This document shows positions 22,131-44,430 of a DNA stretch of 64,000 nucleotides, in pieces. Origin of the DNA: Pseudomonadota bacterium (GTDB lineage Bacteria; Pseudomonadota; Alphaproteobacteria; Rhizobiales; JAKPQE01); NCBI GenBank assembly GCA_029572955.1, contig JAKPQE010000154.1:1-64000 (forward strand). Reading direction: 5' to 3'. The translations under genes were made by a program, and so were the position numbers. The notes under the pieces are model-generated. The model did not search any database, was not told the DNA's origin, and saw only the letters and a list, made by a program, of their open reading frames with translations. The first letter of the stretch is position 1. Every line of letters begins with the position of its first letter.

Positions 22131-22206
22131 GGGCCTGTAGCTCAATGGTTAGAGCCGGCCGCTCATAACGGTCTGGTTGCAGGTTCGAGTCCTGCCGGGC
22201 CCACCA
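22131..22206 (+). tRNA. tRNA with CAU anticodon (Ile2 or elongator Met)
   Basis: All cloverleaf arms fold: acceptor GGGCCTG/CGGGCCC with one G-T pair, D arm, anticodon arm GGCCG/CGGTC with loop CTCATAA (anticodon 22164-22166), T arm GCAGG/CCTGC with TTCGAGT, discriminator A and encoded CCA. A CAU anticodon with this body fits either lysidine-modified tRNA-Ile2 or elongator Met; I favour Ile2 by resemblance. Its 3' part is the attachment site of the adjoining satellite, which restores the gene on integration. Confidence 0.92.
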
Positions 22207-22208
22207 TC
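22188..22208. repeat. attL core (tRNA side)
   Basis: The 21-bp core begins AGTCCTGCC in the T-loop of the tRNA and runs through the encoded CCA to ATC. An identical copy is at 34405-34425. The integrase gene ends 6 bp inside it, the usual layout for tRNA-targeting tyrosine recombinases. Confidence 0.9.
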
Positions 22209-22213
22209 CATCT

Positions 22214-23299
22214 CTATTTCTCCCTTTTGTTCAATGTGTTGTTTCTGAAATTGTCCAACCTTTCGACAGAGTTGGACACACTCAAGAGCTTTCGCATTCC
22301 CGAATCGCCGAGTCGCGCCCGATCTGCCTGCCGGGTGTAGGTCTTCGCTTCGGCGGGTGTTTTGTGGCCGAGGAAGGCCATGATTTCGAATTCCGTGGCG
22401 CCGGCATTTGCCAATCTGGTCGCGCCGGCCTTGCGCAATCCATGCGCTGGGCAGTCGGTCAGGCCGGCCGCTCGGCATTGATCGCGGAACCAGTTGCCGA
22501 AGGATTCGGGGGTGTAGCCGCGGCCTCCGGCATGGGTGAGAAAGAGGAACTGATCGCTCGGTACCTTGGACAACACGGCCGCCAGATCGGGGTGGATTGG
22601 AAGGTCGACTTCGCCGCCAGTCTTGTGCCGGCGATAGGCGATCCGATCGCCCTTCAGGTTCTGCCAGCCCATTGCCGCCGCGTCTTGGCGAGCCGCGCCG
22701 GTGTAAAGCATGAGCCGGAGGGCCAATACCGCCTTCGACCCTTCGCCATGGTGCGCCTCGTATCGCTGAATTTCGGCATCCGTCCAGGTGTGGTAGCCGT
22801 CGGGATTGGTGGCAAACCGCTTGATGCCGTAGGTCGGATCGGTGCTGATGATGCCGCGACGGATGGCAAACTTGCACAACCGGCGGATCAGTTTCAGGAG
22901 CTTGTTGGCTGCCGCTGGGGTCTCGGCCTTCTTGCCGATCAGCACCTCGACATGACGGGCCTCGAGGCCAGATACAGGCCGGCGACCATGCTCCTGCCGA
23001 AACCGCTCGATCTCATATGCCAGATTGCGCCGGTAGATTTTGCCAATTCTCTGGAAGTCAGGCGATCTCAGGTATTGCTCGATCAACCAGGAGAAGGAAC
23101 CGTGGGGGTTGCGGTTCAGGGTGTCCGGGAAGACCGGCTGGCTCGCGAGCGCCCGATCGTAGTTCGCCTCGAATTCCTTCGATCCGTATTCGCCATGAAC
23201 ATAGCAGGCGGGTCGGCCCTTCATTCGAAAGCGCCAACGGACTCTGCCGTGACGGTCGATCACGCGCGTCAAGCCGGGGTAGGGGTTGCGCCGCCTCAT
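22214..23299 (-). CDS. Tyrosine-recombinase integrase of the satellite
   Basis: The 361-residue site-specific recombinase would catalyse integration at, and excision from, the tRNA. The SAM-like core-binding domain is at about 65-165; the catalytic domain shows the first Arg in MLYTGAARQDAAAMGW, HGLRKAG (His-x-Leu-Arg), LGHKT, and the nucleophilic Tyr in AKTYTRQAD. The first motif has Gln-Asp after the Arg rather than the common Ser-Glu, which is tolerated in phage integrases. Its start overlaps the stop of the 60-residue gene upstream (ATGA). Confidence 0.94.
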   Translation of the reverse strand: MRRRNPYPGLTRVIDRHGRVRWRFRMKGRPACYVHGEYGSKEFEANYDRALASQPVFPDTLNRNPHGSFSWLIEQYLRSPDFQRIGKIYRRNLAYEIERFRQEHGRRPVSGLEARHVEVLIGKKAETPAAANKLLKLIRRLCKFAIRRGIISTDPTYGIKRFATNPDGYHTWTDAEIQRYEAHHGEGSKAVLALRLMLYTGAARQDAAAMGWQNLKGDRIAYRRHKTGGEVDLPIHPDLAAVLSKVPSDQFLFLTHAGGRGYTPESFGNWFRDQCRAAGLTDCPAHGLRKAGATRLANAGATEFEIMAFLGHKTPAEAKTYTRQADRARLGDSGMRKLLSVSNSVERLDNFRNNTLNKREK

Positions 23300-23478
23300 T
23301 CCAGCACCTCATCCCAAGTCGCGTCGTTGACGTCGGTGTGCTTGTTCTCGGGGTCGATGAGGACGCGAACGCCGTCCGCTGATGCAATGACTTCGCGCAC
23401 CTTGAGGCCGGCGACAACGACGCCCTTGATGGCGCGTGTCACGTCGGCTTGCGTATATGGTGCGGGGCGATTGGCCAT
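23296..23478 (-). CDS. Small protein coupled to integrase, possible excision factor
   Basis: The 60-residue protein (MANRPAPYTQADVTRAIKG..., ending in DVNDATWDEVLE) overlaps the integrase start by ATGA, the place where an excisionase would sit. The first 30 residues could form a small helical DNA-binding unit, but I see no canonical Xis/MerR motif. I have the impression that similar short proteins occur in rhizobial prophages. The assignment as excision factor is inference from position. Confidence 0.55.
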   Translation of the reverse strand: MANRPAPYTQADVTRAIKGVVVAGLKVREVIASADGVRVLIDPENKHTDVNDATWDEVLE

Positions 23479-23590
23479 TGGATCGGTCCAGAGTGGCGAT
23501 ATTGCTGGTTTCGGCTGCCGGTCCCGCACAGTCCATGACGGGGGACGGGACCGGCTCAAAGCCTGCCGAAGGGCTTCGGAGATACCCCCG

Positions 23591-23917
23591 TCAGTTAGCT
23601 ACCCGGACAGCGACGGTGACCGCGGCGACGGCCGCGGCCTCGACGGCATGGCCGATGAGGGTGTTGTCCGTCGCCGTGGCGGTCACGTTAGCGTTGGCCT
23701 CGCTCCAATAGACCTTCTGGCCTTCGACGAGGCTTTCGTCGGTGGCTTTGGGGAGGAAGAAGACGCCATCCACCTTCACCGCCACCTTCTTTCCTTCCGC
23801 GGCATCCGTTGCCGCGATGCCGAAGAGGTCGCCGAAAAGATGGGCCTGGCCGGACACGAGGCCGCCGGCCGGAGCGGTCAGGTCGAGGGTGTCGCCCGGC
23901 TGAATGTAGTTCCGCAT
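23591..23917 (-). CDS. Capsid decoration protein (DUF2190 type)
   Basis: The 108-residue Ala/Val-rich beta protein (MRNYIQPGDTLDLTAPAGGLVSGQAHLFGDLFGIA) matches the DUF2190 group, which contains trimeric cement proteins on HK97-fold capsids. It is separated by 1 bp from the gpW-like gene and lies directly after the head genes. Its presence implies the satellite builds a stabilised capsid of its own. Confidence 0.75.
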   Translation of the reverse strand: MRNYIQPGDTLDLTAPAGGLVSGQAHLFGDLFGIAATDAAEGKKVAVKVDGVFFLPKATDESLVEGQKVYWSEANANVTATATDNTLIGHAVEAAAVAAVTVAVRVAN

Positions 23918-23918
23918 G

Positions 23919-24128
23919 TCAGTATCCCTTCGAAGTCATGGGGTAGATGATGCGCGGCGAGGGCTTGAGCGCCGCCGCGATGCGTCGTTCGAGGTCGGCG
24001 ATCGCAGCGGCAAGCTCGCTGTCGCTGCGATATTCGGTTTCGTCCTCGCCGAACCGCGTCTTGCGGACGCCCTCGGCGCGAAGGGCGCGAAGGTTGGCAA
24101 GCTGTTCCTGCATCTCGGCGAGGGTCAT
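23919..24128 (-). CDS. gpW-like head completion/connector protein
   Basis: The 69-residue, highly helical protein (two helices: LAEMQEQLANLRALRAEG and DSELAAAIADLERRIAAAL, ending PRIIYPMTSKGY) has the size and pattern of lambda gpW, the ring under the portal that prepares the head for tail joining. A head completion protein in a tail-less element indicates the heads are meant to receive tails. Confidence 0.75.
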   Translation of the reverse strand: MTLAEMQEQLANLRALRAEGVRKTRFGEDETEYRSDSELAAAIADLERRIAAALKPSPRIIYPMTSKGY

Positions 24129-24134
24129 GGCGGG

Positions 24135-25910
24135 CTACGCTCCGGCCGTGTGATCGAGCCGGGTCCAGGACCGCCATTCCAGCCAGCCGAGGCCGAAGGG
24201 GAAGCGAATCTTGAACTGCACGGCGTCCGTGTCGAAGTCGATCCGGCTGTCGGTGAAAGGCGCTTCGTGTCCCTGAAGGTAGACCTGCACGGCGCCGTCC
24301 ATCTTCGCAGGGGAGGCGACGAGCCAGGAAACGTTGGGATCGGCCAGCCGGGGTTCGACCACCACCTGCAGCTTGCCGGCGAGCGGGTTGACATCGGCGA
24401 TGGCCGAAGCCTGCACCGATGCCAGAAGGCGAAGGGCGGTTTCTTCGAATTCCGAATGGACCATCCAGTGGGTCGGATAGGTGCCGATCATGACATCGCC
24501 GATGCCCTTGCGCTTCGCCATGGCAGAGCGGAAGCCCATGAGGCTCCTGACCATCGTCGCTTCCACTTGAGGGAATTCGACGATATTGCCGCGGCTGGCG
24601 TGGAAGACCGGGTTGCCGTCCTTCATGGTCGGGCCGGCGTTGCTCGCCTGCTGGACGAAGGCAACCTTGCGATCGGCGATCTCGGCCGCCGACCGTTTGC
24701 CGAACTGCGCCCCGTCATTGCCGAGGCGGGCGCCAGCATTGATGGTCAGTTCGTAGCTCTTCGAGGTGATGCCGCCGATGATGGCAACCTGCACCGTCTC
24801 GCCGCTCTCGTGGATGAACGAGTGCTTGTAGTGTCCGTCTTCGAGCTTGTCGGCGAGGGCGAGGGAGGTCCAGTCGACCTGGGCGCGGGTCTCGGGGTTG
24901 AAGGTCGCCACCGTGTCGCGGCCGAACAAGGCGGCGATCGGCGAGGCGGCTGCTTCCATCTCGCGGCGCATGGCGAGGTTGAAGGTGCCGCCCGCGATGA
25001 TCGGGAAATCCGAAGTGGTTGCGGCGCGGCGGATCACCTCGGCATCGGCAAGGCCGATGGTCGAGATGCCGGCGTTGCGGCAGAGCCGTTCGGCAAGGGC
25101 ACGCTCGCCCTGGGCGAAGACTTCCGCCGCCTGTCCGGTCGGTGCCTCGCCCCGGTTCACCGCGTCGTAGAACTCGATCACAGCGGTGCGAAGGACGCTC
25201 GGATTGTCGAGCGTCTGGTCGTTGTGCTGGCGGACGGTGCGAACCGTCGGCTGGCGGTTTTCGGTCGCTGCAAGGGCGAGACGCATCTTGTCTTCGTCGG
25301 CGGCGTCGCTCTCGCGAAGCGCCTCGCGAACGTCGTCGGGCACGCCGGCCGCTCGGCAGACGGTGTCCCACTGAACGGGGGTCATACGGGTCATTTCGGT
25401 AGTCGCGGGGTCCATGGGGTTGCTCCTGATCTTGGAGAGAGGGTCTGCGGGGGAAACGACGAAGCTGCCCTCGATGAGCCGGCCAGCGAGCGCGGTGCGC
25501 ACCTTCCGGCCAGTCGCGGGGTCTGTTCCTTCCCGCCACTTCGAAACGGTGAAGGAGATGGAAAAGCTGGTCTGGACGCCGTCCTTGAGGTTGGCGGCGA
25601 TCGCTTCGTTGTCGGCCCGGCTCGAAAGCCGGCCATCGGCGACAAGGGCGGTGACGCCATCGTCCAGCGTCTCGGTATGGAAATTGGTGAGTGTGCCCAC
25701 CGTGTCGCGGACGCTTGCCGAATGGTCCGTCTGCAGTGGCAGACTCGGCGGCCAGCCTTCGGCGCCGAAGGATGCGAGGTCGAGAACTTCGAGATGGCTG
25801 CCGCGATCGACCGGGGCGTTGGTCGCGACGATGACAGTGAATGTGCGCGTTTCCGGGTCGAAGCTGTTGGGCTTCGCCTCGGCCAGAAAGCGGTGAATGG
25901 GATGGGTCAT
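24135..25910 (-). CDS. Fused prohead protease-major capsid protein
   Basis: This 591-residue single frame has a prohead protease at about 1-165 (FTVIVATNAPVDRGSHLEVLDL, PLQTDHSASVRDTVG with candidate catalytic His, SFSISFTVSKW, GSFVVSPADP) and an HK97-fold capsid protein (about 290-591: ATTSDFPIIAGGTFNLAMRR, GETVQVAIIGGITSKSYELT, and a C-terminal KIRFPFGLGWLEWRSWTR). The ATG at 25910 overlaps the portal stop (ATGA). An internal ATG at 25415 is preceded by AGGAG at ideal spacing, so a 426-residue capsid-only product may also be made. Confidence 0.82.
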   Translation of the reverse strand: MTHPIHRFLAEAKPNSFDPETRTFTVIVATNAPVDRGSHLEVLDLASFGAEGWPPSLPLQTDHSASVRDTVGTLTNFHTETLDDGVTALVADGRLSSRADNEAIAANLKDGVQTSFSISFTVSKWREGTDPATGRKVRTALAGRLIEGSFVVSPADPLSKIRSNPMDPATTEMTRMTPVQWDTVCRAAGVPDDVREALRESDAADEDKMRLALAATENRQPTVRTVRQHNDQTLDNPSVLRTAVIEFYDAVNRGEAPTGQAAEVFAQGERALAERLCRNAGISTIGLADAEVIRRAATTSDFPIIAGGTFNLAMRREMEAAASPIAALFGRDTVATFNPETRAQVDWTSLALADKLEDGHYKHSFIHESGETVQVAIIGGITSKSYELTINAGARLGNDGAQFGKRSAAEIADRKVAFVQQASNAGPTMKDGNPVFHASRGNIVEFPQVEATMVRSLMGFRSAMAKRKGIGDVMIGTYPTHWMVHSEFEETALRLLASVQASAIADVNPLAGKLQVVVEPRLADPNVSWLVASPAKMDGAVQVYLQGHEAPFTDSRIDFDTDAVQFKIRFPFGLGWLEWRSWTRLDHTAGA

Positions 25911-27202
25911 GCGGCGACTCCCGGGATTGTGGGGGCGGGGTCCGCCTCTATCTCGGCCGAGACGGTTTCGAACTCGCGGCCCCGCGCCTCGATGATCTCC
26001 TTGCGGGACTTGAGACGGGCGGTGAGGAGGGCGATTTCGCCGGCCGCTTCCTTCTCTGGGTCGATCTGTGGCCAGGCCGGCTCGATCCAGGACGGCTCGA
26101 CTTCGGCGCGGGTGCGGCCGGCGAGCTTTTCGATGGCGTGCCAGCGCTTGAAGACCGGATCGAGGACACCCTCGATCAGCAGCACCTTGCGCAGCGCCTC
26201 GGCCTTGCGCCGGGCGGTCAAGGCGCCGCCCCGGAAACTGCTGTAGTTGACGCCTTCGAGATCGCCGATCAGGTCTTCGTAGGTCACGCCGGCCGCGGCG
26301 GCGATCTGGCGATAGAGCACCTTCATGAAGGCGTTGAAGTCCGGGGATTGCGGACCGTTGACAACTTCCGCTTGCTCGCCCGGTCGCACCCGCACCATGG
26401 CCCCCGGCTCGAGCGAGGGATTGGGATTGCCGTCGAAGGCATCGGCGCCGTCCGGGCTCGTCAGGATCACCGTCAGCATGGCACTGACCTGGAGCTGCTT
26501 CAGCCGGGCCTCGATGGCGATGCTTGCCTGGTTGAGGACCGGCAGGACCGCCACGAGCGGGGAAATGCCGCGCCCCTGGCCGACGAACTCGGCTTCGAAT
26601 ACGTGCACCACCTCGCTTGCATCGAAGCGATAGGATTGCGTGTTGCTGGCGAAGGGGTCGCCCGGTGAATTCGGCAGTATCCAGTAGCCTGTGATGACGC
26701 CGCGCCGGTCGCGGTCGACACCGGCGACGATCGCGCCAGCCTCGCCGCGATCCTCGTTTTTCGAGCGGTCGAGCTGTTCGGGGTCGAGAAGCTGGAAGGC
26801 GTAGCGACCGTCGATGACGCGGTGCAAACCGAGAATTTCGCCGCTCATGATCCAGGAACGGATCGCCGCGCGCTGAAGGGCGGTGATGGAAAGGCGCCCG
26901 GAAGGGTCGAACCGGCCCGCATTGAACCGTTCGTCGAGCGCCTGGTCGGGGGTGTTGAGCCGAATGCCGCTGCCGACGATCTGCGAGACGATGAGGTTGA
27001 CTGCCGACCGGACTACCGGATCGTTGAGATAGAGCCCCGCCACCCGCTGGGCGACCGTCTGGCCGGCCTGGCGAATATCGACCGCAGCGGCGAGCGAGCG
27101 GGGATCGTCCGGCCATTTGGCCGAGGCGGCGTTCACTGCCCGGTCATGCTTTGCTGATGGTTTGTTCGTGCGCGAGAAAAGACGGGGGAAGGGGAAGGCC
27201 AT
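25907..27202 (-). CDS. Phage portal protein (lambda gpB type)
   Basis: The 431-residue protein would form the dodecameric vertex ring for packaging and head-tail joining. Lambda-family portal signatures are visible: QRAAIRSWIMSGEILGLHRV, a VVHVFEAEFVGQGRGISPLV core, YRQIAAAAGVTYEDLIGD and NYSSFRGGALTARRKAEALR. Lambda gpB is about 530 residues, so this is a short version. It is 3 bp from the upstream regulator gene and overlaps the capsid start. Confidence 0.9.
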   Translation of the reverse strand: MAFPFPRLFSRTNKPSAKHDRAVNAASAKWPDDPRSLAAAVDIRQAGQTVAQRVAGLYLNDPVVRSAVNLIVSQIVGSGIRLNTPDQALDERFNAGRFDPSGRLSITALQRAAIRSWIMSGEILGLHRVIDGRYAFQLLDPEQLDRSKNEDRGEAGAIVAGVDRDRRGVITGYWILPNSPGDPFASNTQSYRFDASEVVHVFEAEFVGQGRGISPLVAVLPVLNQASIAIEARLKQLQVSAMLTVILTSPDGADAFDGNPNPSLEPGAMVRVRPGEQAEVVNGPQSPDFNAFMKVLYRQIAAAAGVTYEDLIGDLEGVNYSSFRGGALTARRKAEALRKVLLIEGVLDPVFKRWHAIEKLAGRTRAEVEPSWIEPAWPQIDPEKEAAGEIALLTARLKSRKEIIEARGREFETVSAEIEADPAPTIPGVAA

Positions 27203-27205
27203 GGA

Positions 27206-27862
27206 TTAGTCCTCCCCGCGCGCAAAGAGCTGGCCGATGGCGTGAAACACGCCCGCGCCGATCTGACACTCGACAGTGAAGGCCTTTGGAGCCGCGTCAG
27301 CAGCAAGACTGCCCCATTCAGAATAGTGTAGGAAGACGTTGATCTTCTTTTCCCCGCGGATGCGGGCAAGCGGGTCGCTTTCAGAAATATCGAGGTAGAT
27401 GTCTGCGCTGAATCGATGGCGATCAAAAGAGACGCTGAACTCAGAGGGAGCAGCATAGTCTGGTGTGAATGTTGAAAGATTGAATACCGCGTATTCAATA
27501 AGGGCTTCCAGCGCATCGATCAGGTTGTGGTCTTCGCGCTGAAACACCGAAAGTGGCGCCTCAAGCGGGGCATAGTGGTTACCCGTCGTGTGCTTGTGGC
27601 TCTCTGCCTCGATGATGAGATTCTGTGCCCGCTCGATGGTCTTTTCGGCGAACCCGGCTGGCTGGTCGCTCATCAGCATCACCAGCAAGTGGGCCGCATC
27701 GCGATAGGTCGGGCGGGGCGACTTGGGAGAGCGGTTCTCCTTGGTGAAGAGCCCCGCCTCCCGCAGGCGGCGCGTGGTCAGCTGCACCCTGTCGAAATCC
27801 AAACCTGTCTCTGCCGCCAGTGTTGCCACGAGGTTTGCCGTCTTGATCATAGTTGCACTCAT
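27206..27862 (-). CDS. Winged-helix-like DNA-binding regulator of the satellite (putative)
   Basis: The 218-residue protein has an N-terminal segment (about 5-60: TANLVATLAAETGLDFDRVQ, LTTRRLREAGLFTK, AHLLVMLMSDQP) that reads as a phage-type helix-turn-helix, followed by an unrecognised domain. Its start codon lies inside one of two identical operator palindromes that bracket its promoter, so autoregulation is likely. It is followed after 3 bp by the portal, so it would also set expression of the portal, capsid and gpW-like genes. Confidence 0.65.
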   Translation of the reverse strand: MSATMIKTANLVATLAAETGLDFDRVQLTTRRLREAGLFTKENRSPKSPRPTYRDAAHLLVMLMSDQPAGFAEKTIERAQNLIIEAESHKHTTGNHYAPLEAPLSVFQREDHNLIDALEALIEYAVFNLSTFTPDYAAPSEFSVSFDRHRFSADIYLDISESDPLARIRGEKKINVFLHYSEWGSLAADAAPKAFTVECQIGAGVFHAIGQLFARGED

Positions 27863-27931
27863 TTCATGAAACGATTTCTACAGGATGTCGCGGTCGCGCG
27901 TCAAGTGAAAATGTATTCGTTTCATGAAATG
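27860..27931 (-). promoter_or_regulatory. Promoter bracketed by two identical operators, satellite head operon
   Basis: CATTTCATGAAACGA (27860-27874) and its exact reverse complement TCGTTTCATGAAATG (27917-27931) each contain the 10-bp palindrome TTTCATGAAA. Between them the minus strand reads TTGACG, 18 bp, TAGAAA, a good sigma70 promoter. The first operator covers the start codon of the regulator and the second lies upstream of the -35. This is the classic arrangement for repression by looping or cooperative binding. Confidence 0.75.
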
Positions 27932-27955
27932 GCGTCCAGAAGCTATCGCACTTTG

Positions 27956-28138
27956 TCAGGCCGGGCTGCCGGCCAACGAAGCCTTGAATGCTGCAGCCTG
28001 GTCACGAGCCGCAGATTCCCGGAGCTTCTGGCCGACTTCGTCGCAGAAACTGATGGTCCTGCCGGAGCCGCACTCCGCCCGGACGTCACCCATGGTGACC
28101 TTGGCGGCAATCACATCCACCGCTGAGGATTCAGCCAA
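27956..28138 (-). CDS. Possible small satellite protein, TTG start
   Basis: A 60-residue frame starts at TTG and overlaps the stop of the 28131-28781 gene by 8 bases, the kind of coupling seen elsewhere in this element. The sequence (AKVTMGDVRAECGSGRTISF..., ending KASLAGSPA) contains two cysteines and no known motif. It fills the gap before the operator region. Support is only positional. Confidence 0.35.
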   Translation of the reverse strand: MAESSAVDVIAAKVTMGDVRAECGSGRTISFCDEVGQKLRESAARDQAAAFKASLAGSPA

Positions 28139-28781
28139 TCATCGCCGCCGTTGCACCGTAGCTTTCCCCGAGGAAGCTCGAAAGCAGCGCGTCGCCGGCC
28201 GCATCCGGCAGCTCGTCGAAGGACATGCGGCCGATAACCTTGCGCATGCCGTCACGTTTGGTGGCGAGGTCGGCGGCCGTCTCCGCAGGAAAACTGAGAA
28301 GGGCGATCAACGCGGCATCGGCAGTGCGGAGCGCCGAAAGCCATGCTTCCTCGGCCGCGTCGGTGTTGCACTCGGCCCGAATCATCTCGAGGCGATCATG
28401 CGCGTTCCGGATGCGTAGCACGGCCGCGTCATATGCGCTGTCGAGCATCACCCGCGCGCCGTCGCGGACAGCGCCCGGCAAATATTCATTGATCACTTTG
28501 AACGCCGAATCATACTGGGAGCGCAATCTGTCGAGGCTCACTTCCCGGTCGACTGAGGGAAGAATCTCGATGAACTGGTCGTTGTCGAGAGCAACGACCC
28601 GCCTCGGCGTTTGCTTCAGGGCCTCGTCATACCGCCTGTCGGCGGCGGTAAAGGCATCCCAAAACGGCTCGGCCTTGGCCTTGGTCTTCAACGCTCTGTC
28701 GATCAATTCGACCAGCTCGGGCGAGGCGACGGGGGTAGCGGTTTCTTCAATCGTGGCGATGGCTTCTCTGCGGGTCTGCAT
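28131..28781 (-). CDS. Satellite accessory protein, unknown, helical
   Basis: The 216-residue protein is almost wholly alpha-helical and rich in Ala, Arg and acidic residues (SPELVELIDRALKTKAKAEP, LDRLRSQYDSAFKVINEYLP), with a C-terminal FDELPDAAGDALLSSFLG. Long amphipathic segments suggest a coiled-coil or bundle. It is divergent from the XRE gene and separated from it by operator-like repeats. I do not recognise it. Position between packaging and head genes suggests cargo or a satellite-helper interaction factor, which is inference. Confidence 0.6.
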   Translation of the reverse strand: MQTRREAIATIEETATPVASPELVELIDRALKTKAKAEPFWDAFTAADRRYDEALKQTPRRVVALDNDQFIEILPSVDREVSLDRLRSQYDSAFKVINEYLPGAVRDGARVMLDSAYDAAVLRIRNAHDRLEMIRAECNTDAAEEAWLSALRTADAALIALLSFPAETAADLATKRDGMRKVIGRMSFDELPDAAGDALLSSFLGESYGATAAMIG

Positions 28782-28814
28782 TGTCGTTGCTCCTCAATTG
28801 GATTGATTGGAAAG

Positions 28815-28875
28815 GCTTACATTGATATATTTCGATCAACGTCCATCGAAAGTCAATTGGTATCAATCAAATTGA
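28815..28875. promoter_or_regulatory. Operator-like repeats in the divergent XRE control region
   Basis: AT-rich spacer between divergent genes. TTGAT (28822-28826) and ATCAA (28835-28839) form an inverted repeat with an 8-bp spacer, and CAATT (28855-28859) and AATTG (28870-28874) form a second pair around TATCAATC. These are plausible binding sites for the adjacent XRE regulator, controlling both directions. Confidence 0.45.
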
Positions 28876-29129
28876 GTGAAAAATATCAAATCCTCGGCCG
28901 TCAGATTGCCGCCGGACGAGCCCTCACCGGGCTCAGCCAAGCTGAATTGGCCGGAGCGGCGTCGATCTCGGTTCCGACGCTCCGTCGTATGGAGGCGAGT
29001 GAGGGGATCGCAAGCGGCCTGCCGAACAACGTCTTGGCAGTCCGCAACGCCCTCGAATCGGCCGGCGTGGTGTTCATCGAAGAGAACGGCGGCGGGCCGG
29101 GGGTGCGGCTGAGGAGGTCACTTAGCTAG
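28872..29129 (+). CDS. XRE-family HTH regulator of the satellite
   Basis: The product is about 85 residues with a Cro/C1-type HTH: LGRQIAAGRALTGLSQAELA (helices 1-2), AASISVPTLRRMEASEG (recognition helix), then LPNNVLAVRNALESAGVVFI, the common short rhizobial form. It is the only plus-strand gene of the element. No ATG is available; TTG 28872 or TTG 28857 are the likely starts, neither with a good ribosome site. It converges with and slightly overlaps the next gene. It is probably the maintenance repressor or its antagonist. Confidence 0.7.
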   Translation: MSEKYQILGRQIAAGRALTGLSQAELAGAASISVPTLRRMEASEGIASGLPNNVLAVRNALESAGVVFIEENGGGPGVRLRRSLS

Positions 29130-29417
29130 GTAGGCGCGGCGACATCGCGAGAGCGCAGGCCCTTCGATGTAAGTGAAATTCGTGCCCAGCACCTCAGAAT
29201 GTCCGATCACGATCCCGAGTTCTTTCATCCTGATCGCAGTATCCGTATCGATATCGCCTGAGGAAAGAACAAGCAGCTCACATCCGCACAATTTGCAGCT
29301 CGATCGAATACGATATGGTGCTCCATTATAGCGGCGCCATGGCCGCATTTCGTGGCCATTGAGGTTCGCTTTTTCCATCGCGATGCGCTTTGCATCGCTT
29401 ATCTTCAGGAATTCCAT
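29118..29417 (-). CDS. Small protein with CxxCxC motif, unknown
   Basis: The 99-residue protein has an N-terminal helical part (LKISDAKRIAMEKANLNGHE), a central SSCKLCGCELLVLSSGDIDT that could hold a zinc knuckle with a further Cys near the C-terminus (ALSRCRRAYLAK). It follows TerL by 4 bp and converges on the XRE gene. I do not recognise it; nucleic-acid binding is only a guess from the cysteines. Confidence 0.55.
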   Translation of the reverse strand: MEFLKISDAKRIAMEKANLNGHEMRPWRRYNGAPYRIRSSCKLCGCELLVLSSGDIDTDTAIRMKELGIVIGHSEVLGTNFTYIEGPALSRCRRAYLAK

Positions 29418-29421
29418 CGCC

Positions 29422-31206
29422 TCATCCTTTCATCCATTTGCTCTTGATCACCGCTTGCATCTTTGGCGCGCTACCCTCGATGCCGCGCCGGAGATCATCT
29501 GCCCGCTGATCCCAGTTCACATTGACGATCTGCCGTGCCGCGAAGGCATAGACGGTGCAATCGAGCGCTTCGGCCCGGCGGCCGGGGATGCGCTCGAAAC
29601 GTCGCCTCGGTTGCCCGCGAGAATAGCGGATAATCAAGCGTTCGGCGGCAAGTTGTTCAAACCAGGACGGCGGCAGGCTGTCAGAAAAACGGATCGAGCG
29701 GGTTCGGGCCAGTCGTGAGGTCAGATGGCTTTTGATGCCGTCGACGCCGACGATCCACAGCGCGCCGCCGCGAATCTTCTGCTTGGATTTCTCGATCCAC
29801 GGCCGATTGCCCTCGACGCCCTTGATCGCCAGAACCTTGCGCGACGCGCGGGGGAAACAGAACCGATAGACATTCTCCATGGTTTCACCGTCGCCGCTGT
29901 CGACGGCCGTCGCGTCGAGCCCGATCTTGCCGCCGAGCCGATGGGCGAATCGCATTTTCAGAACGTCGTCGAGCTCCGACCAGGTGGCGTCGTCATCCGG
30001 CAGGCCCCAGAGAACCTTGTGGCCGAGCACGAAGGCTTCGCCCTCGCGGGTCCAGCCGACAAAGGTAATTTCCAACCGGTCGCGCTGCACGTCTACACCG
30101 GCCGTCATCGCCAGCACGTCCGCCGGCATGACGTCGAGTGAGAAGTCCTCCGCTCGGCTGGCCAGCTCGTTGTCGTCGAGTTCATCGCCGTCTTCTCGCC
30201 AGCCTTGGCCGAGGATCGTGTTGACGAAGGTCTGAAGCCTTGCCGGATCGTCCTTTGCGGCAAGGAACTCGGCCGCGAGCCGGCCCCAGGAGGCGTTCGC
30301 CAAAAGCGATATGAGGGCGTTGAGGCGGAAGCCCGCATGCCCCTCGACTTCGGGCCTGGTGGCCCGCCAGCGGCCGCCAGCGACCATCTCGGGCTTGTGC
30401 CGTTCCTCGACGACCGAACCGCAGGATCGGCACACATAGTGCGCCTTGGCCGGTTCGCCCTCTGGCCACTGAATGTCCGACCACAGGATTTCGTGAAAAT
30501 CGCCGCATTCCGGGCAGGGTACCTCGAAAACGCGGGCGTCCGATTCGCCGTAGGACCGCAGGACGTGCGAGGTATCCTCGAAAACCGGCGTCGAGCCGAT
30601 GACGATTTTGCGATCCGCGAAGGACAGGGTGCGCTTTTCGGCGAGAAGAATCGGTGAACCTTCGGCGCCGTTTTCCATGCCGTCCACCTCGTCGCAGAGA
30701 AGGACGCGGACATTGTGGCGGCGAAGATTGCGGGGCGCCTTCGCGGCGACCACCTTCAGCGACCCGCCTGGGAAGCGGCGCGACAGGATCGTGTTGCGGC
30801 CCGTCTCGTCCTTTTCGTTGCCGATCAGGCCGGCAAGGGCAGGGGATGCGTCGAAGATCGGCTCGATATCGCTGACCATGTAGTCGCGGCAGTCCGCCTC
30901 GGTCGGCAACAGGCAAAGGATCGGCGCGGGGTCGTTGGCGATGTAGCTGGCGAGCGCGCCGGTCAGAAGCGTCGTGAAGCCGACGCGCACCGGCTTGACC
31001 AGGGTGACGCGCTCGATCGTCGGGTCGCCGACGGCGTTGGCAATGTCCCGCTGGAAAGGCCACAGGCGCACCGTGCCGGGCAGCGCGGAGACGCCTTCCG
31101 GCAGGAAGACGCTCTCCTCGATCCAGTCGGCGAGCAGCCGGCGTGGCGGCGGCGTGAAGACGGCGAGGGCTTCCCGTCGCAGCGATGCGAGGGTTTCACT
31201 GATCAT
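29422..31206 (-). CDS. Terminase large subunit (GpA type) of the satellite
   Basis: The 594-residue packaging motor has an N-terminal ATPase with WPFQRDIANAVGDPTIERVT, the GpA-type P-loop region around VKPVRVGFT, Walker B-like VRVLLCDEVDGM, then a CPECGD/CRSCGS zinc pair (about 230-265) and a nuclease domain with GLDATAVDSGDG. It is lambda gpA-like and slightly short for that family. I place the start at ATG 31206, overlapping the TerS stop; an alternative five codons upstream exists. It should cut and package satellite concatemers into satellite heads. Confidence 0.92.
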   Translation of the reverse strand: MISETLASLRREALAVFTPPPRRLLADWIEESVFLPEGVSALPGTVRLWPFQRDIANAVGDPTIERVTLVKPVRVGFTTLLTGALASYIANDPAPILCLLPTEADCRDYMVSDIEPIFDASPALAGLIGNEKDETGRNTILSRRFPGGSLKVVAAKAPRNLRRHNVRVLLCDEVDGMENGAEGSPILLAEKRTLSFADRKIVIGSTPVFEDTSHVLRSYGESDARVFEVPCPECGDFHEILWSDIQWPEGEPAKAHYVCRSCGSVVEERHKPEMVAGGRWRATRPEVEGHAGFRLNALISLLANASWGRLAAEFLAAKDDPARLQTFVNTILGQGWREDGDELDDNELASRAEDFSLDVMPADVLAMTAGVDVQRDRLEITFVGWTREGEAFVLGHKVLWGLPDDDATWSELDDVLKMRFAHRLGGKIGLDATAVDSGDGETMENVYRFCFPRASRKVLAIKGVEGNRPWIEKSKQKIRGGALWIVGVDGIKSHLTSRLARTRSIRFSDSLPPSWFEQLAAERLIIRYSRGQPRRRFERIPGRRAEALDCTVYAFAARQIVNVNWDQRADDLRRGIEGSAPKMQAVIKSKWMKG

Positions 31207-31732
31207 CGGCAAGCTCCTCAAGCGTGCGCCGCAGTTCGGTGTCGATCACTTCCACGTCGTGCACCGAGAGGTGCGCGAGTTGCTGGCGGATGCGGGCCGG
31301 GACGGCAAGGATCTTCGACCGGGTCTGCCGGACAATGCCGGCCCAAAGAGACTTCACCTCGGCGACCGGCACCAACTCGCGGCGCAGGGCGGCGTTCTTG
31401 AGGGCCGTGTTGTCGGCTTGTTCCTTCGCCAGCCGTGCGCGCTCGGCGGTGAGGAAGAGCTGGTGTTGCTCGTCACCGCGGCCGGCCGCCATCTCGCGAA
31501 GGTGCGAGGCATAGGATCGCAGAGAAGCAGTGAGGTCGTAGCGGTTGTCTCCGACCTTCACGATGATATCGCGCTGGGCGAGGTCGCGGACGGTGCGGCC
31601 GTGAATATTCACCAACTTGCCGAACGTTTCGCCGTCAACGATCAACTCGGCATCGGCCAAGTCCGCTGCGTAGCGCTCGCTTTCGCCAAGCAAATTTCTA
31701 TGCAAACCAATGACTTGTGCGGTATCAGCCAT
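31196..31732 (-). CDS. Terminase small subunit (Nu1-like)
   Basis: The 178-residue protein has a Nu1-type winged-helix domain (about 45-95: VDGETFGKLVNIHGRTVRDL, AQRDIIVKVGDNRYDLTASL), a charged coiled coil (about 110-135, LTAERARLAKEQADNTALKN) and a C-terminal terminase-interaction part. I place the start at ATG 31732, embedded in the stop of the upstream 108-residue gene. It determines which DNA is packaged, so in a satellite it would select satellite pac/cos sites. Confidence 0.85.
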   Translation of the reverse strand: MADTAQVIGLHRNLLGESERYAADLADAELIVDGETFGKLVNIHGRTVRDLAQRDIIVKVGDNRYDLTASLRSYASHLREMAAGRGDEQHQLFLTAERARLAKEQADNTALKNAALRRELVPVAEVKSLWAGIVRQTRSKILAVPARIRQQLAHLSVHDVEVIDTELRRTLEELADDQ

Positions 31733-32051
31733 CGGCCCGGCTTCCCCTTGCAATTTTCGTTTGCGACCGAAATCCTGCAGTCTCCCCGCCCCGCGTCGCA
31801 TGGCTGAGGGGAAGGACCCGTAGCTCCAGCGCCGCCTCGCGGATGGCGAACAGCAGTTCTGATTTCTCCTCGTGAAAGCGCATCGGGTCTCGGGCTGACG
31901 GGGCGAGCCGCTCAAGCCGATCGGCGATCTCGTCGAGGGTGGTCGTGACACCCCCGACGCCCCCCCTAAGGGGGGCTAGGGGTGTCACGCCCCTCGCATC
32001 GCCGTGACATTTGGACGTGTCACGCTGTGACAGTCGTGTCACGCCAGCCAT
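31725..32051 (-). CDS. Small conserved satellite protein between primase and TerS
   Basis: The 108-residue protein is coupled at both ends: its ATG lies within the last codons of the primase gene and its stop overlaps the TerS start (ATGGCTGA). The middle (TTLDEIADRLERLAPSARDP, MRFHEEKSELLFAIREAALE) is a conserved-looking helical motif of the sort seen in rhizobial phage genes. The first 40 residues are encoded by DNA carrying the iteron-like repeats and a GC hairpin, which probably dictates their low-complexity composition. Function unknown. Confidence 0.6.
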   Translation of the reverse strand: MAGVTRLSQRDTSKCHGDARGVTPLAPLRGGVGGVTTTLDEIADRLERLAPSARDPMRFHEEKSELLFAIREAALELRVLPLSHATRGGETAGFRSQTKIARGSRADG

Positions 32052-32224
32052 ACTTGCCCCCTGTCTATGCCGATGACCGCAAGGCGTAAGAGCTTGGTTT
32101 TCGAGCGTTCCCAGACCTTTCTGAATGAAGCATCGTTGTCCAAGGCCAACTTGTTGCGGACCGCGTTGCGCCATTGATCGACCGTGACAGTCCGCGTGAC
32201 ACATGCCGCTGTCACACCTGTCAC
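31945..32224. repeat. Iteron-like cluster of GTGACA/TGTCAC hexamers, candidate satellite origin
   Basis: Ten copies of GTGACA or its complement lie at 31945, 31983, 32004, 32018, 32027, 32037, 32184, 32196, 32210 and 32219. Six fall within 98 bp and four within 41 bp, at close spacings of 9-14 bp, and a CCCCCC-TAA-GGGGGG hairpin (31961-31975) lies among them. They overlap the 3' end of the primase-helicase gene and the next gene. Iterons inside or beside the replication gene are typical of lambda (inside O) and of PICI origins. Confidence 0.65.
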
Positions 32225-33907
32225 GCGCGTCACGCTCTCGTCCGCGAGAAGGTCCGCGAGGCATCGGCGGGCGATTTCTTCCCGATCCGAAAGACGGGGC
32301 TTTCCTACCGGCTCATTGCCCGCGCCCGTGCCGATCGGGTCCAAGACGCAAGAGGTGATCGCATCACCATCCTCGCCTTCCCCGACGGTCGATTGCAGCA
32401 GGTTGAAGCGGTATTCCTGGCCGTCCTCGCCATCCTTCTGTTTCATGACGACGGCGCGCAGCGGGCCGTCGGTGTCGCTTCCCTTGATCTCGATCACTGT
32501 GTCTGCGTAGTCGCGCAGCATGGAGCTGCCGCGCATCCCTCGCTCGGTCTCCTTTCCGCTGTGGTGGACGATCATGATGTGCGCGGCCGTTTCCGCACGG
32601 AGCCGCTCTGTGTTCTCAAGGAACGCCTTTACGTCGCGGGGCTCGCTGTCGACGCCGCCCGGCATCATTCGGGACAGCGTATCGAGGACGATCAGGCCGA
32701 CCGCCTGACCTGTCGTGTCCTTCACTTCGGCGATCGCATCCTGAATGGTCTGGATCGCATCACTCTTGGCGTCGAGAAGGTCTATGGAGCGCGCCATCAT
32801 GACGAAAGGCGCTCCTTCAGCTTCCCGATACCGCTGCCGCCACGCCTTCATTCGCAGTCGAAAGCCGGACGAACCCTCGGCCGCGACATATAGGACCGGG
32901 CATTCGAAGAGGGCGTGATCGAACCACTCGATCCCCGCGGCGACGTGTGCGCCGAGGTCGAGAGCGAAGAAGCTCTTTCCGCCGCCGGACGGCGCGTGGA
33001 CGATCGACATTTCGTTCTGGCCGAGCAGACCCTTCACCAGCCACTTTCGCGGCGGAACGCGATCTTCCTCGCCAAGCCACGTGAGCGGCAGCCGGCTGGC
33101 CGGTCGCCAGTCTGGCGCGCCCTCGGCGAGTTCGTAGAGTCGCTCAATGCTATTTCCGGCGGCGAACCAGTCCGAAACGTCGCCTTTGTTGCGCAGATCG
33201 AGCAAACGAAGAACGCGAATTCGCGCCGCAATTCCTCTGAGGCTCCTGGCAACCTTCTCGGCGTGCTCGTCGCCGGCCTTGTCGTTGTCAGGGATGATGA
33301 TGACGTCGGCGCCCTTGAGGAATGCCGAGTGTTCGTCTTTCCACTTGCCGGCGCCGCCAGCATTGCAGGTCGCAGGCGCTCCAAGAGACGCAAGCCGATC
33401 GACATCCTTTTCGCCTTCGACGATGAAGACCGGACGCTCCATCGCGATTGCTTCCGTGATTTCCGGCAGGTGATAGGGCACGACCCGCACGCCTTTCACC
33501 GAATAGTCCGTTTCGGATCGACGTTGCAGGAAGGCCTTTGGTTCTTTCCGAACGACTTCGAAGAGCTTCCTGCCGTCTTCATCGTGATAGGGATAGACCG
33601 CGACGACCCGGGCAGTTTCACAGCGCACCGTCTCCGGCGATCCATAGCGCTCGCGAAGCCATTCCTGCGCCCGCTTGTGATCGCCGCCGATCTTGTGATT
33701 GATCAGATCGAGCAACCCGCCGCTGGTGCCGGTCTCGAAGTCGGAGAACGTGCCGGCCGCCGTGCCGCCGATGGCTACCTTGAGGCTGCCGTTCGTCCCG
33801 AAACGAAGCTCGTCATTCTTGGAAAGGCGCTTGTTCGGCTCGCCAAGCAGCTCGCGGGCGACCGCTTCGGTAATGGCTGCAAAGTCGTACCCGCTTCCAT
33901 CGGCCAT
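32039..33907 (-). CDS. Primase-helicase of the satellite (Toprim plus RepA/RecA-like ATPase)
   Basis: The 622-residue protein has an N-terminal region (1-100), a Toprim domain (about 150-245: PVFIVEGEKDVDRLASLGAP, ADVIIIPDNDKAGDEH), and a RecA-like AAA ATPase (about 280-500) with Walker A HAPSGGGKSFFALDLG, Walker B LIVLDTLSRM and sensor MIVHHSGKETERGMRGSSML. This pairing primes and unwinds DNA for element replication. The C-terminal VTRVTGVTAACVTRTVTV stretch is encoded by iteron-like repeats. It lies 3 bp after the preceding gene and overlaps the next. Confidence 0.88.
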   Translation of the reverse strand: MADGSGYDFAAITEAVARELLGEPNKRLSKNDELRFGTNGSLKVAIGGTAAGTFSDFETGTSGGLLDLINHKIGGDHKRAQEWLRERYGSPETVRCETARVVAVYPYHDEDGRKLFEVVRKEPKAFLQRRSETDYSVKGVRVVPYHLPEITEAIAMERPVFIVEGEKDVDRLASLGAPATCNAGGAGKWKDEHSAFLKGADVIIIPDNDKAGDEHAEKVARSLRGIAARIRVLRLLDLRNKGDVSDWFAAGNSIERLYELAEGAPDWRPASRLPLTWLGEEDRVPPRKWLVKGLLGQNEMSIVHAPSGGGKSFFALDLGAHVAAGIEWFDHALFECPVLYVAAEGSSGFRLRMKAWRQRYREAEGAPFVMMARSIDLLDAKSDAIQTIQDAIAEVKDTTGQAVGLIVLDTLSRMMPGGVDSEPRDVKAFLENTERLRAETAAHIMIVHHSGKETERGMRGSSMLRDYADTVIEIKGSDTDGPLRAVVMKQKDGEDGQEYRFNLLQSTVGEGEDGDAITSCVLDPIGTGAGNEPVGKPRLSDREEIARRCLADLLADESVTRVTGVTAACVTRTVTVDQWRNAVRNKLALDNDASFRKVWERSKTKLLRLAVIGIDRGQVWLA

Positions 33908-33910
33908 CGG

Positions 33911-34255
33911 TCATGCCTCATTGAGCTGAAGCACGAGTCGGGAGCTGCCGCGGTCGTCGACAACGGCAACTTCGAACCACGGCTGGCCGGGCCGGGCCAG
34001 TGCCCGCACCTTGTCTCTTGCTCGGACGTCAAGGTCTGGATATTTGGTGCGGTCGATATGCATCTCGCCCTTGCGGGCGACGATCCGCGTTCGCCATGAG
34101 GTCGAGCCGCTGCCACCGATCGAGGTCGATTCCCCGCCGCCGACACGCAAGATCGCTTCGATCTCGCGGGCCGGCCGGGTCGCATCGAGCATCCCTTGGC
34201 TGGTGAAGAATGACAGGCGGACCGGCTCGGCGAATGCCTTGTCGTTGCTCGTCAT
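33911..34255 (-). CDS. First gene of the satellite leftward operon, unknown
   Basis: The 114-residue protein begins MTSNDKAFAEPVRLSFFTSQ; its C-terminal half looks like a small beta domain (HIDRTKYPDLDVRARDKVRA, then PWFEVAVVDDRGSSRLVLQL). It precedes the primase gene by 3 bp and is the first gene after attR, a place often held by early regulators or replication helpers. I do not recognise it. ATG 34255 is preferred to a longer reading to 34309. Confidence 0.6.
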   Translation of the reverse strand: MTSNDKAFAEPVRLSFFTSQGMLDATRPAREIEAILRVGGGESTSIGGSGSTSWRTRIVARKGEMHIDRTKYPDLDVRARDKVRALARPGQPWFEVAVVDDRGSSRLVLQLNEA

Positions 34256-34404
34256 CGAGCGATCGCGAAGCCTGTGGAAGCGGGCCGGGAGCATCACGCA
34301 CCTGCCCAAAACCGGTTGGACAATTCACCGAAAAGCCATTTGTTTTCAATGGCCGTCTTTTTCGGGTTGGTCGCGCCAAGGCGTTGATGTTTCAGTCGCC
34401 CAAT
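34256..34404 (-). promoter_or_regulatory. Satellite control region next to attR
   Basis: This 149-bp AT-richer leader contains GCCATT/AATGGC (34335-34340 and 34348-34353), a partial REP-like AAAACCGGTT (34310-34319), and no gene. The promoter for the whole leftward satellite operon must lie here. A minus-strand TTGAAA overlaps the hairpin, but a convincing -10 is not obvious. Confidence 0.4.
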
Positions 34405-34425
34405 AGTCCTGCCGGGCCCACCATC
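34405..34425. repeat. attR core
   Basis: This is an exact 21-bp copy of the tRNA 3' end (T-loop AGT through CCA and ATC) without the rest of the tRNA. Together with 22188-22208 it bounds the satellite. Confidence 0.9.
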
Positions 34426-35927: not shown

Positions 35928-35957
35928 CGCATCGGCCTCTTTGTCATTTCTCTTTCG

Positions 35958-36055
35958 TCGCTCGGCTTGTCCGAAAACCGGTTCCCACTTTTCGGGCCTC
36001 GGGTCTTTTCATCGCTCGGCTAGCCCGAAAACCGGTTCCCACTTTTCGGGCCTCG
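35958..36055. repeat. Tandem pair of REP-like repeats between gpX and gpD
   Basis: Two 44-bp units (35958-36001 and 36012-36055), two mismatches apart, each carry a core running from CCGAAAACCGG to CACTTTTCGG. A third related copy is at 40191-40215. I recognise the core as a REP-like repeat common in rhizobial chromosomes. Confidence 0.75.
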
Positions 36056-42674: not shown

Positions 42675-43180
42675 CAGAGCACCGCGAGGATTTCGTCGCG
42701 GCGGGCCGAAGTGATCAGCCCTGCGAGAACCAGGTTCTCCATTCCGGCGACAGTGTCCTGGTGTGCGAGATCGATCTCCTGGGCCGCGACGGCGCGGGTG
42801 ACCCACCCATAGAGATCCGGGCTCTGGAGAGCCGCCGCAGAGATCGCCTGAAACTCCGGCTGGGTGAACCGGGCGAGAAACTCGAACGGCGTGATGTAGC
42901 GCTTCGGCTCATCGTCGGGGTCCGGAATCCGCTCGATCGAGTGAACCTGCTTGACGATCCCGCCAATCCGCTGGAAAGCGAACGACACACTCCGATAGCC
43001 GTCCGGGATCGCTTCCTCAGGGACGCGGTAGATGTCGAGTTCCGCAAGCTCGGCGTCGCTCCACAACGCAAGGATTTCCGGCGGGTGTTTGACGCGGTTC
43101 GCCCCTTGCCCGGAGACAATCGCTGTCCTCGTCTCGACCGGATCGAAGACGTCAGGCGAAATTTCTCGCACGAAGAACAT
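42674..43180 (-). CDS. Tail-fibre-region protein, probable fibre assembly factor
   Basis: The 168-residue protein has an N-terminal MFFVREISPDVFDPVETRTA, a central IPDGYRSVSFAFQRIGGIVK and a C-terminal helical half (FEFLARFTQPEFQAISAAAL, ENLVLAGLITSARRDEILAV). Similar proteins accompany fibre genes in phages. The start overlaps the QueC-like gene by 29 bases. Assembly role is inferred from position. Confidence 0.55.
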   Translation of the reverse strand: MFFVREISPDVFDPVETRTAIVSGQGANRVKHPPEILALWSDAELAELDIYRVPEEAIPDGYRSVSFAFQRIGGIVKQVHSIERIPDPDDEPKRYITPFEFLARFTQPEFQAISAAALQSPDLYGWVTRAVAAQEIDLAHQDTVAGMENLVLAGLITSARRDEILAVL

Positions 43181-43817
43181 GCGCGACCTCCACGGTTCGA
43201 TGGGGAATTCCAAGCTCGCGCCTGCGCCGGCAGGCGTGGCATTTGCGACAGGGTTCGATGATGCCGTCCCTGTAGTCCGGATGGCGGCATGACCATGTCT
43301 TGTCGAGCAGCGTTGATCCGATCATTTCCGCGACTTGCACCTTCGTCATGGTCAGGTGTGGCGGGGGATCGATGACGAAGCGGCTGGCATCCGCCCCGAA
43401 GCCTGCCGAGATCTTGGCGACAGACCGCGGCATGTACGCGCCATTGGCCCATCCGTTGGTCGCATAGCGCTCATGCCCGACCTCGTTCATCCCCCACGCG
43501 ATGCCAACGTCGAGGTGCGCGAATTGCCGGAGAAGAACGCCGGTCATGTAGAGCCAGAAGGCGCTGTCCTCAAAATCCGTGAACTCGCGGACGTCGATCG
43601 CCATGCGGTGGATCGTGAGCTGCGGGTGCCTGATCGACAGATGGGTCAGGACATCCTCTCGGCACACGAACTCGACATCGGCCCTTCCGAGCCTCGTCTG
43701 CAGCTTGATTGCCAGGGCGACGACCTGCTGCGCGTGGGCAAGCGCATCGACAAGGATGCCCGTGCTGTCGAGGCCGCCTGAGAAAGGCACGATGATGCAG
43801 TCACGCCCAAGCGACAT
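43152..43817 (-). CDS. QueC-like PP-loop protein (7-cyano-7-deazaguanine synthase family)
   Basis: The 221-residue protein has an N-terminal PP-loop IIVPFSGGLDSTGILVDALA, a middle domain, then TWSC and a CRKCHACRRRREL zinc cluster, which is the QueC pattern. QueC converts carboxy-deazaguanine to preQ0 with ATP. Some phages use preQ0-type bases to protect DNA. No other deazaguanine genes are visible here, so it would depend on host precursors or do something else. It overlaps both neighbours, so it belongs to the fibre operon. Confidence 0.75.
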   Translation of the reverse strand: MSLGRDCIIVPFSGGLDSTGILVDALAHAQQVVALAIKLQTRLGRADVEFVCREDVLTHLSIRHPQLTIHRMAIDVREFTDFEDSAFWLYMTGVLLRQFAHLDVGIAWGMNEVGHERYATNGWANGAYMPRSVAKISAGFGADASRFVIDPPPHLTMTKVQVAEMIGSTLLDKTWSCRHPDYRDGIIEPCRKCHACRRRRELGIPHRTVEVAHVLRARNFA

Positions 43818-44430
43818 CGATAACACCCGCAGAGCCGTACCCGGAGGTCGAGTATGTGGTCGACCTGTTGCCGCCAGAACCGATCGTCACGGGGATTGTT
43901 TCACCTGGCACCGGCGCGCCCGGATCGCCCAGGTTCCACGTCATCACCGCCTTGCCGCCGGCGCCGCCATAGCCGCCACGACCACCAGAGCAGCCGCTAC
44001 CCGTTCCGTTGCCATAGGATCCGACCGGACGGTTGGAGCCGCCTGTAGTGAGGATCGCGCCGGGCGGGCCTGATGCCGTTCCGCTGCTGCCATTGGCCCC
44101 GGCCGAGGACGACCCTGGGGAGCCGCCGGCACCGCTGTTTGCGATGAGCGCAGTCGACGAATTGAACTTCGACTGCCCCCCCGCACTTCCGGCATACCCG
44201 GTCTGGTAGCTGTAGGTGTAGTAGCCGCCGGCGCCGCCATCCAAGCCAGGGTTATATGTCGCCGTGCAGTAGCCGCCGCCGCCGCCGCCGCCGGTTGCCC
44301 CGTTGATGGTCACGGTCAGCGTGTCGTACTCCGGAACAATGAAGCCGCCGCTTGCCGTGAACTGCTGCCAGCCCGGCACGACGACGCGCGTTGGCGGAAA
44401 AGGTTTGAGGCCGGGAAGCACAGATTTCAC
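43801..44430 (-). CDS. Glycine-rich tail tip/adhesin-like protein
   Basis: The 209-residue protein has a short N-terminal attachment region (LPGLKPFPPTRVVVPGWQQF), then long Gly-rich loops (a run of seven Gly; GGYCTATYNPGLDGGAGGYY; GGRGGYGGAGG) ending in IPVTIGSGGNRSTTYS. Poly-glycine loop architectures form the receptor-binding tips of T-even-like and other phages. It follows the fibre gene by 4 bp. Confidence 0.75.
   Translation of the reverse strand: MKSVLPGLKPFPPTRVVVPGWQQFTASGGFIVPEYDTLTVTINGATGGGGGGGYCTATYNPGLDGGAGGYYTYSYQTGYAGSAGGQSKFNSSTALIANSGAGGSPGSSSAGANGSSGTASGPPGAILTTGGSNRPVGSYGNGTGSGCSGGRGGYGGAGGKAVMTWNLGDPGAPVPGETIPVTIGSGGNRSTTYSTSGYGSAGVIDVAWA

Follow-up and report, generated by a model that had tools for sequence, protein, structure and literature searches.

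A 12-kb tRNA-Met island of an alphaproteobacterium that appears to encode its own phage head but no tail

A tRNA gene occupied by an integrase, a replication gene and a set of phage head genes, with no gene for a tail, raises the question of what such an element is: the remnant of a prophage, or a satellite that builds its own head and takes the rest of the particle from a helper. Capsid-forming PICIs (cf-PICIs), reportedly described by Alqurainy et al. in 2023, indicate that a satellite can steal tails alone. A second, unrelated head cassette would, if true, mean that this strategy arose more than once. Here, we analyze an island of this kind in a bacterium of the order Rhizobiales (Alphaproteobacteria), based on a stretch of 64,000 nucleotides from contig JAKPQE010000154.1 of assembly GCA_029572955.1 (henceforth termed the window), on the remainder of the host genome and on relatives in other bacteria.

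Borders and gene content of the island

The island measures 12,217 bp (window 22188-34425) and sits in the 3' end of a tRNA-Met gene between two copies of the direct repeat AGTCCTGCCGGGCCCACCATC, which agree at all 21 bases and at 24 of 25 positions over a wider match. Because of this 21-bp repeat, and because its first 19 bases occur only twice in the whole 3.76-Mb genome, both times at the att positions, the borders proposed in a preliminary description of this DNA are exact to the base. The minus strand carries nearly all island genes, arranged in compact groups, with overlaps of 4 bp between portal and capsid genes and of 11 bp between those for the large and small terminase subunits (TerL and TerS; Table 1). 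An empty site was not recovered for the window copy, since its right flank is taken up by a Mu-like prophage as far as the contig reaches. The host genome encodes a two-piece tmRNA, which is class-specific for Alphaproteobacteria.

The genes named in the preliminary description are all present, each with a significant Pfam or PHROGs match, and its statement that tail, baseplate and lysis genes are missing holds as well: the Pfam and PHROGs profiles gave zero matches to such families among the island proteins, and no tail, baseplate or lysis genes of the kind found in a complete lambda-type prophage lie inside the att sites. Judged from its sequence, the island appears to carry the full gene set for its own DNA-filled head and none for a tail. 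Comparison of the capsid protein with solved structures returned no match, a search of viral contigs with the primase gave weak matches at best, and PADLOC matches to defense genes as possible cargo were weak.

Table 1. Features of the island and its integration site (positions in the window)
Feature	Position	Strand	Basis
tRNA-Met (CAT), integration target	22131-22206	+	ARAGORN
att repeat, tRNA side, 21 bp	22188-22208	+	direct-repeat comparison
Tyrosine integrase	22214-23299	-	PF00589 1e-12, phrog_1
Small protein between cement gene and integrase	23296-23478	-	slot conserved across the island family
Head cement/decoration protein	23591-23917	-	PF09956 5e-29, phrog_122
gpW-like head-tail adaptor (Ad1)	23919-24128	-	phrog_2545 3e-15
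Prohead protease-major capsid fusion	24135-25910	-	PF25209 1e-24, phrog_4523 ('major head and protease') 3e-67
Lambda-type portal	25907-27202	-	PF05136 3e-68
Gene directly upstream of portal	27206-27850	-	position-conserved slot
Accessory protein, TerL-portal variable region	28131-28781	-	no family match
XRE-type helix-turn-helix regulator, start uncertain	28740-29129	+	HTH_31 4e-5, under curated cut-off
Small accessory protein	29118-29417	-	no family match
TerL, gpA type	29422-31206	-	PF05876 8e-86, PF20454 7e-98
TerS, Nu1-like	31196-31732	-	phrog_57 3e-24, PF07471 3e-4
Predicted cos site	31744-31819	-	resembles lambda cosQ
Primase-helicase (Toprim + AAA_25)	32039-33907	-	PF13481 4e-40, phrog_239 2e-44
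Probable head-tail stopper (gpFII-like)	33911-34294	-	phrog_25398 4e-45; predicted fold
att repeat, distal side, 21 bp	34405-34425	+	direct-repeat comparison

Two elements of the island were not listed in the preliminary description. The first is a predicted cos-like site upstream of terS. Located 613 nt upstream of the TerL start, ACGGGTCCTTCC is nearly identical to the lambda cosQ sequence ACGGGTCCTTTCC; the lambda element stands just before the cos cut, and the island element occupies the same place relative to terS. In the 900-nt zones that precede TerL in 28 islands (25.2 kb in total), the motif GGGTCC[CT][CT]CC was counted 19 times, versus twice in their other 652 kb. Given this lambda-like site and the concentration of the motif upstream of TerL, we would expect the island to be packaged from cos by the terminase it encodes.

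The second element is a probable head-tail stopper, which falls into a PHROGs family of unknown function and is conserved at 60-76% in four relatives. Its structure was predicted as an all-beta fold (pLDDT 67.5) that aligns with phage neck or stopper chains in the PDB at VIA-align Z values of 8.0-9.8, and the top rows include the head-tail connectors of Chi, lambda and R4C. Profile comparison tied the protein to the one that follows the capsid in tape-measure-bearing islands (83%) but gave no match to classical stoppers, which is why we term it probable.

Regulation may involve two further genes. The XRE-type regulator recurs in many relatives at the same position and on the opposite strand, and the slot upstream of the portal is filled in most family members by a protein of 150-250 amino acids that is variable in sequence and often helix-turn-helix-like. 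We regard the latter as a candidate late regulator that may act as a late activator matched to the helper; a structure model of the window protein was uninformative (pLDDT 39).

Relatives in other Alphaproteobacteria

To survey the island family, we searched the capsid protein against viral contigs, named genomes and 397 genomes of the host's order. Strong matches were found in 29 of the 397 genomes, and 29 loci from this survey were read. Twenty-four are islands bounded by a tRNA-end repeat; all but one of these span 9.9-13.1 kb, the exception being a 16.8-kb island with a tape-measure gene. The other five comprise four undelimited or damaged loci (L094, L095, L097, L099) and one of the tape-measure type (L105). 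A full tail module adjoining the head block was present in none of the 29. When all searches are taken together, 35 att-bounded islands carry a related capsid, with a median size of 11.9 kb and 34 of them within 9.9-13.1 kb. Their targets include genes for tRNA-Met, Ser, Phe, Arg, Asn, His, Gln, Glu, Gly, Val, Lys and Cys, and in Brucella pituitosa one relative abuts the tmRNA gene while a second island with a different integrase resides at tRNA-Phe of the same genome.

Gene order in the family is fixed and runs from the replication gene through TerS and TerL to a variable region with an opposite-strand regulator and a position-conserved slot that is often helix-turn-helix-like, followed by portal, protease-capsid, gpW-like adaptor, cement, a small gene, integrase and tRNA. 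The window island shares the portal-capsid-gpW-cement-integrase series, the size of ~12 kb, the tRNA att repeat and the cos-like site upstream of terS. Tail and lysis families were absent from the 21 Pfam families matched by 108 other island proteins and from the 25 commonest of the 77 PHROGs families. A few relatives have HNH matches, and some encode small AlpA/HTH_17-like proteins; the window island shows just the weak XRE-type match. The search of related genomes suggested in the preliminary description recovered the same gene set, with att borders and without tails, in dozens of loci. Close relatives in which these genes continue into tail genes, named there as the contrary outcome, were not found; the head block instead runs straight into integrase and tRNA.

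Several loci depart from this plan. The sole apparent exception to the absence of tails is a near relative (L116/L042) in a metagenome-assembled genome, which borders a P2-like tail module, but one encoded on the other strand. We rejected it as an intact head-and-tail phage: homology to the other islands ends inside terS and TerS is truncated at the junction, and the locus is a recombinant or an assembly artefact. A tape-measure-like protein accompanies the capsid, in some cases with chaperones and with no other tail genes, in L046, L047, L007, L082, L105, L110 (with L120), L113 and L115. L110 was also dismissed as a full prophage, as its extension shows a chaperone and the tape measure alone, followed by host genes. 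Opinion could fall either way on whether the family forms an independent, widespread alphaproteobacterial lineage of graded head-building satellites, some with the head alone and others (L046, L047, L082, L105, L110, L113, L115) with a tape measure and sometimes chaperones that would set the length of the helper tail.

For a tRNA-Phe island of genus g89, the flanks lie ~2 kb apart in genome G172 and ~17 kb apart in G313; from this spacing we read the island as absent or replaced in both, and neither provided a clean empty site. In two more genomes (G405, contig C5; G414, contig C4), the tRNA-Phe att sequence recurs at a spacing of 11.1-11.6 kb, which probably marks further islands. We found no published description of this family in the open-access papers searched, although the original cf-PICI and SatelliteFinder listings may include some alphaproteobacterial members, and a large family of ~12-kb islands in Alphaproteobacteria seems not to have been described previously.

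We compared the islands with the tailed relatives RcKemmy, Pben1, F10, S1 and MinM1 and with tailed prophages of the class. Where these have a gpW-like gene, it is found between TerL and portal, and their stopper and tail genes come after cement; in the islands, gpW lies behind the capsid, and cement is followed by the integrase. In a set of 50,697 phage records, TerL identity peaked at 37% and capsid identity stayed below 28% among the matches listed, whereas TerL identity in most islands is 52-72%. Because the nearest isolated phages are this remote, function is argued here from protein families and not from close characterized relatives. Quick tree searches, with support by SH-aLRT alone, placed the window TerL in a clade of 29 island rows, itself included, with zero tailed phages (SH-aLRT 100), and the window capsid in an island-only clade of 15 rows; other island capsids fall into another large group together with a few tailed phages. 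Details differ between the TerL and capsid trees, e.g., for L087-L089, which points to an exchange of modules. Between the two islands with differing integrases in one Brucella genome, dN/dS amounts to 0.019 for TerL, 0.033 for the capsid and 0.075 for the portal, values that indicate strong purifying selection on the head genes.

These data bear on the reading that the island is a defective prophage whose tail and lysis genes were lost by deletion. Such an origin would agree with the homology of its head genes to those of tailed phages and with the presence of tailed relatives in the same class, but it sits poorly with a gene set, order, size and att borders that repeat in dozens of species and at many tRNA genes, with the selection on the head genes, with a gpW position that differs from the tailed relatives and with a head block in which no pseudogene was seen. 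We therefore consider a deleted prophage highly improbable and, as far as the sequences tell, take a one-off deletion to be excluded for the window island.

Proposed satellite cycle and candidate helpers

We consider it very likely that the island is a phage satellite with a small head that it assembles and fills by itself, while a helper supplies tail and lysis. In the cycle that we infer, the integrase would excise the island from the tRNA-Met gene and the primase-helicase would replicate the excised DNA. After a cut at the cos site ahead of terS, the island's TerS and TerL would load ~12.2 kb of linear DNA into capsids that consist of the island's portal, protease-capsid and cement proteins, and the gpW-like adaptor and the stopper would then close the neck to yield a tail-ready head. 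A helper tail would join this head, lysis by the helper's holin and endolysin would set the particle free, and once inside a new cell the island DNA would be inserted at tRNA-Met by the integrase. The uniform size of ~12 kb predicts a fixed small capsid.

A tail-less phage-like particle that exits and enters cells with no tail taken from a helper, or a capsid domesticated for DNA delivery, is the least likely of the readings we weighed. The island has no tail gene and its helper is a matter of candidates, both of which would suit this idea; yet the gpW-like adaptor and the probable stopper serve tail reception, a lysis gene is missing, and integrase, primase and cos belong to a mobile element and not to a gene transfer agent.

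For the satellite with a borrowed tail, the host genome offers two candidate helpers, neither of which is favored by the data. One is the adjacent Mu-like prophage (L117 on contig C47), which starts at ~34.9 kb, reaches the end of the contig (77.7 kb) and has a P2-type contractile tail and its own terminase, portal, capsid, MuA (71433-73595) and MuB. Its full P2/Mu-type tail module starts ~500 bp outside the island (34926 onward). We considered these tail genes as a part of the island and rejected them, as they lie beyond the att repeat and belong to a separate prophage with its own head genes and MuA. The contig ends inside this prophage. By eye, window 43152-43826 within it encodes a PP-loop/QueC-like protein possibly involved in DNA base modification, and two 49-nt direct repeats, 94% alike, lie between tail genes of this prophage at window 35953-36055. 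The other candidate is an apparently complete contractile-tail prophage with a gpA-type terminase at ~11-60 kb of contig C132 (L142-L144).

The idea is open to a direct test in a type-culture strain that holds both a family member and an active phage. Paracoccus versutus (bengalensis) DSM 17099 (Rhodobacterales; L174) carries a 10.6-kb island at tRNA-Glu (pBEN ~920206-930795) with a cos-like site upstream of terS and with TerL and integrase 64% and 49% identical to those of the window, and mitomycin C induces the release of the siphovirus Pben1 from this strain (PMC6536676). The head cassette is common in rhizobia, Brucella relatives and methylotrophs. If the satellite reading is true, many 'incomplete prophages' at tRNA genes of these bacteria would be explained, and the islands would probably serve to transfer genes between such bacteria.

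Comparison with known head-building elements

With lambda, RcKemmy and Pben1 the island shares the TerS-TerL-gpW-portal-protease/capsid-cement set and, as predicted from its sequence, a cos-type site upstream of terS and probably a gpFII-type stopper. These lambda-type phages differ in their full tail and lysis modules, in gpW lying between TerL and portal and in a size of ~40 kb, and protein identity to the window island is low. The Streptomyces satellites MulchRoom and MiniFlayer also bring their own encapsidation genes and need a helper, without homology to cf-PICIs and with an independent origin; a primase is missing from them, their genomes have direct terminal repeats and their helpers are virulent phages (PMC10690885), whereas the window island has a primase-helicase and a cos-like site. 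The Vibrio satellite plasmid cf-PISP is capsid-forming and tail-less, with helper tails proposed, but differs from the island in being episomal, in its PF05065 capsid and in its occurrence in Vibrio alone (PMC13230959).

The closest parallel in strategy is offered by the cf-PICIs. The cited passages of PMC10690885 define them by capsid, protease, portal, connectors, both terminases and HNH, with tails given by the helper; those of PMC13230959 assign the published capsids to PF05065; and those of PMC10803314 report an average of 14 kb and an occurrence mainly in Enterobacteriaceae, Firmicutes groups, Pasteurella and Morganellaceae. As seen from genes alone, the island resembles them in being integrated and in combining integrase, replication gene, terminases, portal, protease, capsid and connectors without a tail. 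It differs from these descriptions in its capsid, a PF25209 protease fusion in place of PF05065 (PMC13230959), in its 12 kb versus ~14 kb, in its alphaproteobacterial host and apparently in its regulators. HNH endonuclease, the marker of the cf-PICI packaging block in the cited passages of PMC10690885 and PMC13230959, had no match in any protein of the window island.

Common descent with the gammaproteobacterial and firmicute cf-PICIs would account for the same logic of own capsid, terminases and connectors with no tail, but is opposed by the capsid family, the missing HNH gene and possibly the lack of a recognized AlpA/Stl regulator; we rate it slightly less likely than a deleted prophage. 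Of the two relations to cf-PICIs that the preliminary description had left side by side, equivalence gains from a tail-less family with its own head set, while membership loses on capsid family and HNH. Since the capsid is not PF05065 and HNH is absent, we file the island as a separate lineage, in line with what PMC10690885 argued for the Streptomyces satellites, and, set against the published cf-PICI descriptions, a distinct alphaproteobacterial line that would follow the cf-PICI strategy is well supported.
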